The position numbers and the translations under genes are program-made. This document shows, piece after piece, positions 6,013 through 15,932 of a DNA stretch of 37,707 nt (positions are counted from its first letter, which is position 1; each line of letters starts with the position of its first letter). Under the pieces are notes generated by a model. That model had not been told where the DNA came from. It was given only the letters and a program-made list of their open reading frames with translations, and ran no database searches. Origin of the DNA: a virus; the IMG/VR virus record IMGVR_UViG_3300014499_000012, positions 1 to 37,707 of that record. The stretch is one strand, 5' to 3'.

Positions 6013-6160
6013 GAAAAGCAGGACAACTCTGAGGCTTTTCTCCCGTTAGGCCGTTTGCCGAGGCAAGGGTTATATATCGGCTTCCTCGTCACCTGGGGGT
6101 AAATAAGTGGTGAGGTTGGCTGGCTTCTAAGCCCGTGATCCCGTGGGTTGCCATTACGGG
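6013..6160 (+). ncRNA. Structured leader of the DNA polymerase gene
   Basis: The 174 bases between the ssDNA-binding gene and the polymerase SD hold five consecutive hairpins. They are GAAAAGC/GCTTTTC (6013-6040); GCCG/CGGC (6050-6081) enclosing TTGC/GCAA (6055-6066); TCACC/GGTGA (6089-6113); GGCT/AGCC (6122-6133); and CCCGT/ACGGG (6140-6160). The last is followed by TATATTTTT (6162-6170) and then the SD GGAGGA. ACGGG could instead pair with an earlier CCCGT at 6132-6136, disrupting the GGCT/AGCC hairpin. The layout is that of a leader ending in an attenuator-like hairpin; the ligand or factor is unknown. Confidence 0.5.
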
Positions 6161-6179
6161 GTATATTTTTGGAGGATTT

Positions 6180-8243
6180 ATTAAAGTAACAGATATACAA
6201 GACCAAGTGCTCTATACAGCTGCTGCTGTTGAGCAATTCTTTACATCTATAGATGCCGATTGGCCTCTAGTAGCTGACGTAGAGACTTTTGGGACTGACC
6301 CGGCTAATGGGAAGCTCCTGGGCCTGGCTTTGTGTTCCGTTGCTTCTCCTTTAAAACCTGTTTATATTGCCCTACAATGGTATGAGTTTAATACCTCTAC
6401 CTGGAGGGTTAATAATGAATTTGAATTGATTATAACGTCAATTAAAGCTCATTTAAGCTATTGTGAATTAGTGGGCCATAATTATGCTTATGATAAGTTA
6501 TGGCTTGATACAGTTCTCAAGATTGAGACTAGCTGGCATGCCTGTACTCGCCTTATGTGGCACATGGCATCTGCCCCCTCTGGCCCCAAAGGCTATGGAC
6601 TTAAAGACGCCCAAATTGAAGTCCTAGGCTGGGATAAGCGTGGAAGTGATGAACTAGAAGCGCAGGTCCAAGCCAGAGGGGGAAAGCTAAAGGAAGGTGG
6701 ACATTATTTAGCAGATGTGGGTGTCTTGGGGCATTATGCATGTTTAGATGGTAGCTCCACAGCGATGCTATATAATGAGTTAAAAAGATTTTTTGATCTG
6801 TATGATTATTGGTGGATGCTTGAAAAGATGGTAGCCTATTCCTGGCTGCTTCAGGTTAACACTACTGTTGGCATACGTGTGGACCTTGACCGTCTTGAGA
6901 AGACTATTGAGACATTACAGGACACTAAGGCTGCTTATGGGGCAGCTTTTCAAGAGCTAGCCAGTTCCCACATCACCCGCCTAGAGCGCATATGGCGGGA
7001 TGATAGAGCGGCTAAATACACCCTGCCAGCAGCTAAGGAGCGTTTCTTGTCTGACTGGAGCATGCAAAAGAAGTTTAATTTGTCGTCTGACAAGGATAAG
7101 AGAGAATTATTCTACACCTCGATGGGGTTGCCAGTGGTTGTGGAGACCGATGGGGGTAAGGGGTCTACAAGTCTAGACGGACTGCGACTCGCGATTCGCG
7201 ATTCACATAAAGAAGACTTAAAGGAATTATTGGAGATTTATGAAGAAGCAGAGTCTTGTGATACACTTCTTAGCAGTTTTGCTAAACCTTGGCTTGCTGC
7301 TAGCACTAGCGGACGCCTTAACCCACGATTCAACCCATGTGGAACTGTGTCTTATCGGTTGTCTGGGTTTAAGCCGTATCTGCTTAATGCTCCTTTCTCG
7401 GAATATGAGCTAATGTCATGCCTAACCTGTGATGAAGGTTGGGTTGGATTACATGCCGATTTTGTTTCTGTTGAGCCGGCCGTCACGGCTCATTACAGTC
7501 AGGACCCGTCCCTCCTTAAAGTGTTCCGGGATGGGTTGGGAGATGTTTACCTGGACCTTGCCTTGACTCTTTTTCCTCGTGATGAGGCCTTGAAGGCTGA
7601 ATATAACCCCTACCTCCCGGTCACTTCGGCTGTTAAGTCTGAGTTTAAAAAGGTTAGGGATATTGGAAAGCTTATTCATTTGGCAGTACAGTATACCGGC
7701 AAGGAATATACGGTACAGAAAAACTTGGATTATGCAGGGTACCCTACTACTTTAGAGGAAGCCCGTACCATGGTCGCTGACTACTGGAAGCATTTTCATA
7801 AGGTCGCTGTAATGAATGAGACCTTATTCAGGATGTTTGGTAGGAAGGGATACCTGCGAAACGCAGTAGGACGGGTTATCAGGGTTCCCACCCATGTTGA
7901 CATCCCGATGCGAGACGGAACCATCTGGCATAAGGAGATACCTAGGTTTAAGGATTTGCCTAGCCGCTTCATTCAGAGCAGTGCCCATGATATATTAAGC
8001 TTTTGGGTGTTGATTATTGCCCGTAAAGTTAAGGAACAAGGGCTTAAAGCCAAGCCAGTTATTATTGATTGCCATGACAGTACCAGTTGGCAGGCCCCCC
8101 AGGATGAGATTAATGCTTTAGAAGTTATCTTTAAAGAAGCCCTGACAGAGTTGAATCAGGGGATTAGACTCAGTGTACCGGTTAAAGTGGAAATGAAGAG
8201 ATTTCATACTTTAGCTGGCTTGAAAGGCCAGGAGGATTTATGA
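6180..8243 (+). CDS. Family A DNA polymerase with proofreading domain
   Basis: 687 residues from a probable ATT start at 6180. GGAGGATTT precedes it, exactly as it precedes ATG at 8240; the frame upstream to GTG 6135 has no SD and lies in hairpins. The exonuclease domain is intact: D33/E35 (VADVETFG), N101/D105 (GHNYAYD), Y186/D190 (YACLD). Polymerase motif A is DFVSVEP (D427, E432). Motif B is R493...K497...L501...Y505, where the usual Phe or Tyr of the O-helix is Leu. Motif C is CHDS (H632, D633, S634), where the usual HDE glutamate is Ser. Both catalytic Asp remain, so the enzyme is probably active but divergent. It should be the replicative polymerase, working with the adjacent primase and ssDNA-binding protein. 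Confidence 0.92.
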   Translation: MKVTDIQDQVLYTAAAVEQFFTSIDADWPLVADVETFGTDPANGKLLGLALCSVASPLKPVYIALQWYEFNTSTWRVNNEFELIITSIKAHLSYCELVGHNYAYDKLWLDTVLKIETSWHACTRLMWHMASAPSGPKGYGLKDAQIEVLGWDKRGSDELEAQVQARGGKLKEGGHYLADVGVLGHYACLDGSSTAMLYNELKRFFDLYDYWWMLEKMVAYSWLLQVNTTVGIRVDLDRLEKTIETLQDTKAAYGAAFQELASSHITRLERIWRDDRAAKYTLPAAKERFLSDWSMQKKFNLSSDKDKRELFYTSMGLPVVVETDGGKGSTSLDGLRLAIRDSHKEDLKELLEIYEEAESCDTLLSSFAKPWLAASTSGRLNPRFNPCGTVSYRLSGFKPYLLNAPFSEYELMSCLTCDEGWVGLHADFVSVEPAVTAHYSQDPSLLKVFRDGLGDVYLDLALTLFPRDEALKAEYNPYLPVTSAVKSEFKKVRDIGKLIHLAVQYTGKEYTVQKNLDYAGYPTTLEEARTMVADYWKHFHKVAVMNETLFRMFGRKGYLRNAVGRVIRVPTHVDIPMRDGTIWHKEIPRFKDLPSRFIQSSAHDILSFWVLIIARKVKEQGLKAKPVIIDCHDSTSWQAPQDEINALEVIFKEALTELNQGIRLSVPVKVEMKRFHTLAGLKGQEDL

Positions 8244-12555: not shown

Positions 12556-12857
12556 AGTTTGCTGAAGGTCCTTATAGTGTAAAAAGGGTTTATCACGAGC
12601 CAGATGTAATAACCTATGAAGTCAGTGCTGGTGGTAATGAGTCTGGGTATCACGTGATATTTGATGAAGATAACTGTTTAGATTTAGGAATTAGTGCCAA
12701 AGAACAAGCAGAATTATATGCAGCTTCTCCTGATCTTTATAATGCCCTAGAAGTTGCAAAGATTTTTTTAGAGCAAATAGCAGACTCGCATAACGTACTA
12801 ATACACGGAACCTCCTACTATAATCAAATTTGTAGAGCATTAGGAAAATTAAAATGA
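12552..12857 (+). CDS. Small conserved phage protein
   Basis: A 101-residue protein with the widespread segment KEQAELYAASPDLYNALEVA, seen in many phage and prophage small proteins of unknown role, preceded by a beta-rich half. Overlapping starts and stops place it in the same transcript as the spanin-like gene that follows. Confidence 0.65.
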   Translation: MKFAEGPYSVKRVYHEPDVITYEVSAGGNESGYHVIFDEDNCLDLGISAKEQAELYAASPDLYNALEVAKIFLEQIADSHNVLIHGTSYYNQICRALGKLK

Positions 12858-13099
12858 TTGCCTGGTTGAGTGATTTAAAGTTAAGTTTGTCTCAGTGGCT
12901 CCTCCTCCTCCTAGCCACGTGTGTTGGGGGCCTTGTGGTTGCATTGAAGCTACAAGGCTCTCAGCTCCACAAAGCTCAGGTCGAGTTGCTCAGTTCCCGC
13001 GTAAAGCAAACCACTGATGTTGACAATGAAGCCCGGAAGGAAGTCCTGGACACTTTCCAGGCGGCTTATAAAGCTTATATAGGCGCTAAGCATGTATAA
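12854..13099 (+). CDS. Membrane coiled-coil protein, i-spanin-like
   Basis: An 81-residue protein with one N-terminal transmembrane helix (about residues 14-32) and then a helical, charged domain (33-75) with heptad spacing. This is the topology of an inner-membrane spanin (Rz type), but the length is short and no family motif proves it. Located at the end of the rightward operon, 8 bases overlapping the next membrane protein gene and facing the endolysin cluster. Confidence 0.5.
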   Translation: MIAWLSDLKLSLSQWLLLLLATCVGGLVVALKLQGSQLHKAQVELLSSRVKQTTDVDNEARKEVLDTFQAAYKAYIGAKHV

Positions 13100-13349
13100 A
13101 GCATGCTTACTGGCACTCATGGCCCAAGCGGTTGCTGTGGGCCAGCCCCCTACATGTGATGTGGTACTTACGGCCTGTAAAGCCGTAGTAGACCAGGACA
13201 CGACCCAACTGACCCACATGAACCAGTCCATTAAGGACTTGGAAGACCAGTTGGCTAAAGACGAAAAAACCCCGCTACTGCCTTGGTGGGCTGTGGCGGG
13301 GCTATCGGGCTTTGTAGCCGGTATGTTGCTGGGTAGCAAGCTTAAGTAG
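13092..13349 (+). CDS. Secreted membrane protein with coiled coil
   Basis: An 85-residue protein: signal-like N-terminus (residues 1-17), two Cys (22, 29), a coiled coil (32-58) and a C-terminal transmembrane segment (WWAVAGLSGFVAGMLLGSKLK). Proteins of this layout are frequent next to phage lysis genes, and I would place it as a second spanin-like component. It is not a lipoprotein, since no lipobox is present. The 3' end overlaps the oppositely oriented rhomboid gene by 8 bases. Confidence 0.5.
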   Translation: MYKACLLALMAQAVAVGQPPTCDVVLTACKAVVDQDTTQLTHMNQSIKDLEDQLAKDEKTPLLPWWAVAGLSGFVAGMLLGSKLK

Positions 13350-13908
13350 ATTTCTTTTGCTTACCTGCCATTAGGAATAGGCCCATAAGGACTCCCCCTA
13401 TATGGGCAGCATAGGCGATGTTTCCGCCTAATAAAGCCATGCTCAACCCCTGAAGGTTGGGAACAGTAGATAAAAATAGTAACCCAAGAGAAAGGGCTCC
13501 CAATAGGGGGCCTTTTTTCATTATGGCGCATGAAGCAGCGAAGCAGCCCATTATAGCACCACTAGCCCCAATCATAACTCCCTGGCTGAGAGGCATGCAG
13601 CATTCTGTGCCCAGGGCAGCTAGGCCGCAAAGCAGGTAAACCTGTAGCAATCTAACGCTTCCCATTTTATGCTCTAGGAACAGCATTACGGGAACCCCAA
13701 GCATCATGTTACCCAGCAAGTGCTGAAACCCGGCATGAGAGAACATATGTGTAAATATGGTGATAACGGCCAGGGGCAACAAGGTTGGGCTAAGAAAGTT
13801 GGATAAGTCAAATGCCTGAAGAGGGGTAATGGCAGGACAAAGGGATTGGAGACACTGCAGGGCTACACAAACAGCTACGATTGTAGCGGTCATTTTATAA
13901 TGCTTCAT
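13342..13908 (-). CDS. Rhomboid intramembrane serine protease
   Basis: A 188-residue polytopic membrane protein with all rhomboid hallmarks. FTHMFSHAGFQHLLGNM carries the HxxxN oxyanion motif (H63, N67). IGASGAIMG has the nucleophile S116. AAHIGG has the base H169. The length equals a minimal six-helix core. Rhomboids cut transmembrane substrates near the membrane surface. The gene follows endolysin with a 14-base overlap and AAGGA five bases before the ATG, so it is co-translated with the lysis cassette. Possible substrates are phage membrane proteins (holin, the spanin-like pair, the lipoprotein, the 15669-15932 protein) or a host membrane protein. Activity is predicted; the role is inferred. 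Confidence 0.88.
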   Translation of the reverse strand: MKHYKMTATIVAVCVALQCLQSLCPAITPLQAFDLSNFLSPTLLPLAVITIFTHMFSHAGFQHLLGNMMLGVPVMLFLEHKMGSVRLLQVYLLCGLAALGTECCMPLSQGVMIGASGAIMGCFAASCAIMKKGPLLGALSLGLLFLSTVPNLQGLSMALLGGNIAYAAHIGGVLMGLFLMAGKQKKST

Positions 13909-14341
13909 TTGGGTCCTTTAAAAAGAGAGCCTTTTCAGCATCTCTACGTTTGGTTAGGCCAGGGGAAACGTACATACCAATATGGTTCCACAACGGAAAC
14001 TGCTCGGAGGCTGAGGCGAACTGGGAGCGGTTGAGGAGTTTGAGAAGGCCGCTCTTCGCGAGGTTACTAGCACCTAGGTTATAGGTGAATGAACACAAAG
14101 CTGCCATCTGGTTCACATTAACCGGGACCTTCACTAAAGACTCGACCTGCCCCACAACCCCGCTTATATCAGCCGCTAAAGCCTCATCAGCCTGCTGCTC
14201 CGACCACACTGTGCCAAGTTGCACATTCCCGGTATGCCCATACCCTATGGTAACTCGGCCCCCCTGGTCGGTGTAGGCTGTGAGCTTGCATCCTTCCCAT
14301 TCCTTTAAGAATGGAACCAATACATCATTAAGCTGCATCAT
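13895..14341 (-). CDS. GH24 endolysin (lysozyme)
   Basis: A 148-residue protein. The catalytic triad has T4-lysozyme spacing: E16 (EWEG), D25 (YTDQGG) and T31 (VTIGYGHT). NQMAALCSFTYNLGAS and LTKRRDAEKALF are further GH24 signatures. It cleaves peptidoglycan glycan strands. No signal peptide or signal-anchor is seen, so it should depend on the holin encoded just upstream, with which it overlaps by 14 bases. Confidence 0.92.
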   Translation of the reverse strand: MMQLNDVLVPFLKEWEGCKLTAYTDQGGRVTIGYGHTGNVQLGTVWSEQQADEALAADISGVVGQVESLVKVPVNVNQMAALCSFTYNLGASNLAKSGLLKLLNRSQFASASEQFPLWNHIGMYVSPGLTKRRDAEKALFLKDPNEAL

Positions 14342-14780
14342 TAGGCCCCTTGGTGATTACTGTCTCACTGGTCTCCTCAACCACTGTGGTTGCTACGACC
14401 GGCTGGTCTGGAGCTAGTTTCTTCAACAGAGAACCAAATAGAGCATTTCCGCCTAACTCATCCAGGTGCTCTAGGCAGCTTTTAAGCTCTGTCATGCCGA
14501 TCAAACCTGTGACCATCTTTACCGCTGGAACTAGTCCATCCAGTAGAGAGGTTTCAGTTACGTAGGCAAAGATTGTAGCAGCCTCATACATCATGATCTT
14601 GGCTATAGTTCGTTTAAGCCCTGCCGATGTTATTGGCTTGTTCTGCTTCTTAGCAATTAGAAGGGCAAATACTAGGTCCACTAGGGGCAGACTCATTACA
14701 CTTATTAGCGCGGGGTGAATAGGAACTAAGGCAACCCAAGCTGCTACACAAACATATTTAAGTACATCAAGGAGTTTCAT
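14328..14780 (-). CDS. Phage holin
   Basis: A 150-residue protein with an N-terminal helix (VCVAAWVALVPI), a second after a short turn (ISVMSLPLVDLVFALLIAKK) and a third weaker one (IMMYEAATIFAYVTE). A helical charged tail follows. The LVDLVFALLIAKK...TSAGLKRTIAKI pattern matches the phage holin 4-type family. It would permeabilise the inner membrane for the endolysin encoded next. It starts four bases after a fibre gene. Confidence 0.75.
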   Translation of the reverse strand: MKLLDVLKYVCVAAWVALVPIHPALISVMSLPLVDLVFALLIAKKQNKPITSAGLKRTIAKIMMYEAATIFAYVTETSLLDGLVPAVKMVTGLIGMTELKSCLEHLDELGGNALFGSLLKKLAPDQPVVATTVVEETSETVITKGPNDAA

Positions 14781-15668: not shown

Positions 15669-15932
15669 CTATAAGAAATGAATAAAAAGGTGTAGAACTA
15701 AGCTAGCACCTATAGCTAATAACACTTTGTGGTCTCTTTTAAGTTTGGCAGGTTTAGTGCCAATTATATTTCCCTGAACCCACATATGGGGAGGCACCCC
15801 TTGTGGAATGACTGGATTAATTAACACATCTTTTCTACCTGCGTAATCATCAGGATTAATTCCATGATAAATTTTAACATTTCCGTTGCTTCCAAATACC
15901 ACAGCTACATTATCAATAATTTTATTTGACAT
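15669..15932 (-). CDS. Small C-tail-anchored protein
   Basis: An 87-residue protein: a soluble part (VVFGSNGNVKIYHGINPDDY and on) and a C-terminal hydrophobic helix after a basic stretch (KLKRDHKVLLAIGASLVLHL). Predicted tail-anchored or holin-accessory type membrane protein, or a virion protein with a membrane-active tail. The family is not recognised. It sits between two fibre genes. Confidence 0.55.
   Translation of the reverse strand: MSNKIIDNVAVVFGSNGNVKIYHGINPDDYAGRKDVLINPVIPQGVPPHMWVQGNIIGTKPAKLKRDHKVLLAIGASLVLHLFIHFL

Follow-up and report, generated by a model that had tools for sequence, protein, structure and literature searches.

To our knowledge, phage lysis is generally described in terms of holins, endolysins and spanins, with no protease step. 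Rhomboids carried by phages are already known. Stenotrophomonas phages DLP5 and DLP3 carry a rhomboid membrane protein (gp93 of DLP3, 175 aa), whose gene is listed as accessory (a moron) and lies near genes for sugar modification, away from the lysis genes (PMC5834331, PMC7326821). A tblastn search with the rhomboid described here gave no match to the DLP5/DLP3 rhomboid. Rhomboids of jumbo phages (LR745206, LR756502; L126, L134) are likewise phage-borne, and that of LR745206 is 37% identical to the protein under study; in the trees, however, they formed a branch (98) separate from the eight phage rhomboids considered below, and neither a holin nor a lysozyme was seen beside those inspected (L002, L126, L134). 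At L126:685–1698 and L128:1182–2195 (both on the minus strand), a large-phage rhomboid gene is followed directly by the gene of a small protein that has a signal peptide and a membrane segment at its C-terminus; immediately upstream is an ECF-sigma-like gene. The search of predicted viral structures yielded seven matches at probability 1.00, six of them named rhomboid-like; since there were only seven, viral rhomboids exist but are scarce, in agreement with the preliminary description, in which rhomboids were called unusual in phages. The placement of a rhomboid in a lysis cassette is, as far as found, unreported: an open-access search for literature linking rhomboids with holins or lysis, endolysins or superinfection exclusion returned nothing relevant, which is not proof of novelty.

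The window, i.e., the whole stretch of DNA analyzed, comprises the 37,707 bases of a virus record. The gene of the rhomboid intramembrane serine protease occupies positions 13342–13908 on the minus strand (no strand had been given previously), starts with ATG and encodes 188 aa with six predicted membrane helices. The product matched the Pfam Rhomboid family (PF01694) with E = 7.9e-23 and a score of 81.7 bits (cut-off 22.6), and contained the motifs of the S54/PF01694 family, namely, GxSx with the Ser, AHxxG with the His and HxxxN with the oxyanion His and Asn. The equivalents of GlpG residues H150 (oxyanion side), N154 (oxyanion hole), S201 and H254 are, respectively, H63 (codon 13720–13722), N67 (13708–13710), the catalytic S116 within GASG at residues 114–117 (13561–13563) and the catalytic H169 within AAHIGG at residues 167–172 (13402–13404), all encoded on the minus strand and each invariant in 8/8 phage homologues. 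The complete rhomboid signature claimed in the preliminary description was thus found at exactly these positions. In the AlphaFold model, built on an alignment of 58 rhomboids (A9), the mean pLDDT was 92.9 and the helix order was that of GlpG; S116 opened helix 116–129, H169 was located in the last helix, and the leading PDB matches were all GlpG structures, with a TM-score of up to 0.77. Profile search and structure prediction, both proposed earlier as checks, therefore agreed on a rhomboid. The ORF is not a chance one, because its model folds as a rhomboid and homologues occupy corresponding positions in other phages; its product is almost certainly a rhomboid protease. With the fold, the Ser–His dyad and the oxyanion residues complete, the enzyme is predicted to be catalytically competent.

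Compared with E. coli GlpG (MEROPS S54, PF01694), the phage protein shares the six-helix core, the Ser–His dyad and the oxyanion His/Asn (TM-score 0.77), whereas the cytosolic N-terminal domain is missing and the gene is phage-borne and overlaps lysis genes. It is not a GlpG equivalog (27.3 bits against a cut-off of 335 for NF008155 and 25.3 against 250 for TIGR04239). Rhombosortase (TIGR03902) is likewise a small single-domain rhomboid, and this family was the best NCBIfam match for five of the six phage rhomboids scanned (E = 7.2e-10 for that of the window); membership was rejected at 39 bits against an equivalog cut-off of 84.

The order of genes on the minus strand of the window is holin, lysozyme, rhomboid. 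The holin gene (14328–14780) overlaps that of the lysozyme-type endolysin (13895–14341; PF00959, 2.2e-39) by 14 nt. The holin assignment is marginal (PF05105, 1.3e-4, just above the cut-off; PHROG holin, 7.9e-4), and homologues of this protein fill the equivalent slot in other phages; no match to it was found in the phage collection. The endolysin/rhomboid overlap of 14 bases and the separate Shine–Dalgarno sequence reported earlier were both seen: the two genes share positions 13895–13908, and a Shine–Dalgarno-like AAAGGA is located at 13914–13919 (minus strand), inside the end region of the lysozyme gene, 5 nt upstream of the rhomboid ATG. Two small genes lie on the plus strand. P4 (12854–13099) encodes a protein with an N-terminal membrane segment that is inner-spanin-like by layout only, and overlaps P5 (13092–13349), which encodes a type I protein with a signal peptide, a coiled coil and a C-terminal Pro/Gly-rich membrane segment; the P5 gene converges with the rhomboid gene with an overlap of 8 nt.

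Relatives were found using the DNA polymerase, rhomboid, lysozyme, exonuclease and holin of the window and a rhomboid DNA motif. A scan of viral contigs with the single rhomboid sequence gave no match, whereas the alignment, motif, polymerase, lysozyme, exonuclease and holin scans succeeded; it should be noted that seed-pattern searches miss distant members. The resulting set comprised eight rhomboid phages: the window, G011, G002, G016, G019 and G017, and the more distant G013 and G018. All are uncultivated contigs with shared ancestry, so counts among them are not independent. The polymerases of G011 and G002 were 64% identical to that of the window. Contig L005 (IMGVR_UViG_3300037100_000043) encodes a polymerase 100% identical to that of the window and gave no rhomboid match within its 16.5 kb, the contig probably ending short of that region. 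The best-covering matches listed for the window polymerase (6135–8243, plus strand) in the phage collection showed 22–25% identity; the window phage is only distantly related to isolates.

In six of the eight phages, window included, the rhomboid gene is directly beside the holin and/or lysozyme gene, in three gene orders: holin–lysozyme–rhomboid (window and G011), holin–rhomboid–lysozyme (G002, G016 and G019) and rhomboid–holin–gap–lysozyme (G017). The rhomboid gene of G018 comes after genes for small membrane proteins of 51 and 73 aa, and that of G013 adjoins similar genes and a lipoprotein gene; assignment to a lysis module is weaker in these two phages because no endolysin was identified beside their rhomboid. 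The predicted rhomboid gene overlaps a neighbor by 1–47 nt in 8/8 phages, the start codons being predictions. The survey for endolysin–rhomboid adjacency suggested in the preliminary description thus revealed a holin and/or lysozyme neighbor in most of the set, and the decay and unlinking in relatives that would have spoken against the proposal were not observed, the catalytic residues being intact in all eight phages and the linkage present in six. The association of the rhomboid with lysis genes is real and has persisted over evolution, and the rhomboid is very probably a genuine lysis-module gene.

Pairwise identity among the eight phage rhomboids was 22–63%, and H58, H63, N67, G114, S116 and H169 were present in all of them. 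For the closest pair, G016 and G019, the rhomboid had a dN/dS of ~0.17, the holin one of 0.12 and P5 one of 0.21, which are rough values (dS ~1.9, near saturation) but suggest purifying selection on the rhomboid in this pair. The eight sequences clustered apart from the sampled cellular rhomboids with SH-aLRT support of 93–98 in a rapid tree and support of 90/95 in a more careful one; this support is good but not decisive, long branches being present. Within the rhomboid tree, the copy of the window sided with G016/G019, and the grouping seen for the polymerase (window, G011 and G002) was rejected (AU test, p = 0.018). Therefore, either the rhomboid gene or its cassette has undergone exchange or relocation, and the gene is nevertheless still found in the module. 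The search for a donor by phylogeny, also proposed earlier, indicated none: the best-scoring cellular rhomboid among those fetched was 33% identical, and no cellular group was certainly adjacent in the tree.

The holin, lysozyme and P4/P5 recur in a sister clade, for which no rhomboid was found in the records searched, two of them 37–38 kb long. Thus, lysis of this type does not depend on a phage rhomboid, nor does any of these four proteins; the gene is an add-on that is useful to, and maintained by, some of these phages, whereas others dispense with it. On the polymerase tree, the presence and absence of the rhomboid require one change (support 73/84), which tentatively reads as a loss with G013 and G018 as the outgroup, although the outgroup branch is very long and the change may instead be a gain. 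In this rhomboid-less sister clade, a gene encoding a secreted lipoprotein-like metalloprotease with HExGHxxGxxH (L022:2760–3257, minus strand; Pfam Peptidase_M57, 8.2e-6) adjoins the P5 gene, with homologues in L304, L316, L320, L322, L303 and L315. The metalloprotease is absent from all rhomboid phages and from the rhomboid-less G020 and G012. It is a possible functional substitute for the rhomboid, the clade counting as one event and G020 and G012 having neither enzyme.

Several phage membrane proteins had been put forward as substrates. For the spanin-like pair at 12854–13349, conservation was confirmed, but the pair was conserved equally in rhomboid-less relatives: profiles found P4/P5 in most of those whose contigs reach the region, so the pair does not travel only with the rhomboid. 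One correction concerns the strand: P4 and P5 lie on the opposite, convergent one and are therefore not in the rhomboid transcript. Nor is it a canonical Rz/Rz1 spanin pair; reading of the sequence by eye gave no clear lipobox in P5, the second protein, which ends in a membrane segment. As conserved targets, two further candidates lacked support: none of the phages compared has a homologue of the lipoprotein at 929–1099, and the only homologue of the tail-anchored protein at 15669–15932 was found in the rhomboid-less G020. The tail-anchored protein (minus strand) has 87 aa and a membrane segment at its C-terminus. In the comparison of presence and absence, the rhomboid was the sole family found in all rhomboid-bearing and in no rhomboid-less genomes, and no membrane protein tracked it; a dedicated phage substrate gene was thus rejected, the rhomboid being alone in this distribution. 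The target may be a shared protein that is cleaved only in phages possessing the enzyme; otherwise, it would be a host protein. Few substrates of bacterial rhomboids are known, and orphan type I proteins with Pro-containing segments are removed by such enzymes (PMC7232013). In the P5 membrane segment, Pro64 is near-invariant and G73 and G77 (GxxxG) are invariant, the Pro/Gly segment being kept equally in rhomboid-less phages; the structural model of P5 had low confidence (64.9). Because its Pro and GxxxG segment and its topology fit the known bacterial substrates, P5 (13092–13349) is the most plausible candidate for a target encoded by the phage.

The rhomboid probably acts at the membrane at a late stage of infection. 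The best explanation of the data as a whole, to which we assign a probability of roughly 0.42, is a late-acting membrane protease within the lysis module that tunes lysis. The rhomboid would be made together with the holin and lysozyme and would insert in the host inner membrane late in infection, where it would cut a single-pass membrane protein of N-out/C-in topology; cleavage may then adjust membrane disruption or envelope breakdown. The protein cut would most plausibly be P5 among those encoded by the phage, with a host membrane protein as the main alternative. That the target is a phage lysis protein is a tentative proposal, and the more specific one, that this phage-specific lineage is an enzymatic regulator whose cleavage of P5 or the holin sets or triggers membrane breakdown, is rather unlikely. 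A role in lysis, like the timing of lysis and the block of superinfection proposed in the preliminary description, is thus a hypothesis.

Late operons can also carry superinfection or anti-host genes, which counts against a role in lysis. The rhomboid could accordingly ride the late lysis operon for its expression while cutting a host membrane protein late in infection, such as one of a receptor pathway, of the envelope-stress response or of a membrane-anchored defence. The failure of any phage membrane protein to track the rhomboid is consistent with such a factor, as are its absence from some close relatives, typical of accessory genes, and its apparent exchange between phages. However, across several gene orders the gene remains within the cassette or adjacent to it and overlaps its neighbors, an arrangement tighter than that typical of accessory genes, and the DLP3/DLP5 rhomboid, placed among accessory genes elsewhere, demonstrates that a location among lysis genes is not obligatory for a phage rhomboid. 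This anti-host or superinfection reading is somewhat unlikely, though it is the main alternative. It is considerably less probable that the enzyme performs membrane quality control. It would then resemble GlpG and Rhom7, which clear orphan respiratory subunits: by removing small membrane proteins, encoded by host or phage, that are orphaned or in excess while late genes are overexpressed, it would preserve membrane integrity up to lysis. A phage copy would be redundant in this task: hosts usually carry their own rhomboids, and the Pfam rhomboid family was matched in 14/14 control genomes. Dispensability in relatives fits a helper role, however, and the removal by bacterial rhomboids of orphan type I proteins with Pro segments (PMC7232013) is a precedent. 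Finally, a recently captured cellular gene, functionless in the phage, would fit the universality of rhomboids in cells and the rhomboid-less sister clade, but is very improbable given eight diverged homologues that cluster and keep every catalytic residue, the low dN/dS of the G016/G019 pair and the absence of a close cellular sequence among those fetched.

If the reading of this rhomboid lineage as an enzymatic regulator of lysis is true, it would place a protease layer on top of the holin–endolysin scheme. A rhomboid that is small by nature and has few candidate substrates would be useful in itself, few bacterial substrates being known (PMC7232013), and a lineage retained in lysis modules offers a concrete and cheap test of the control of lysis by regulated intramembrane proteolysis.
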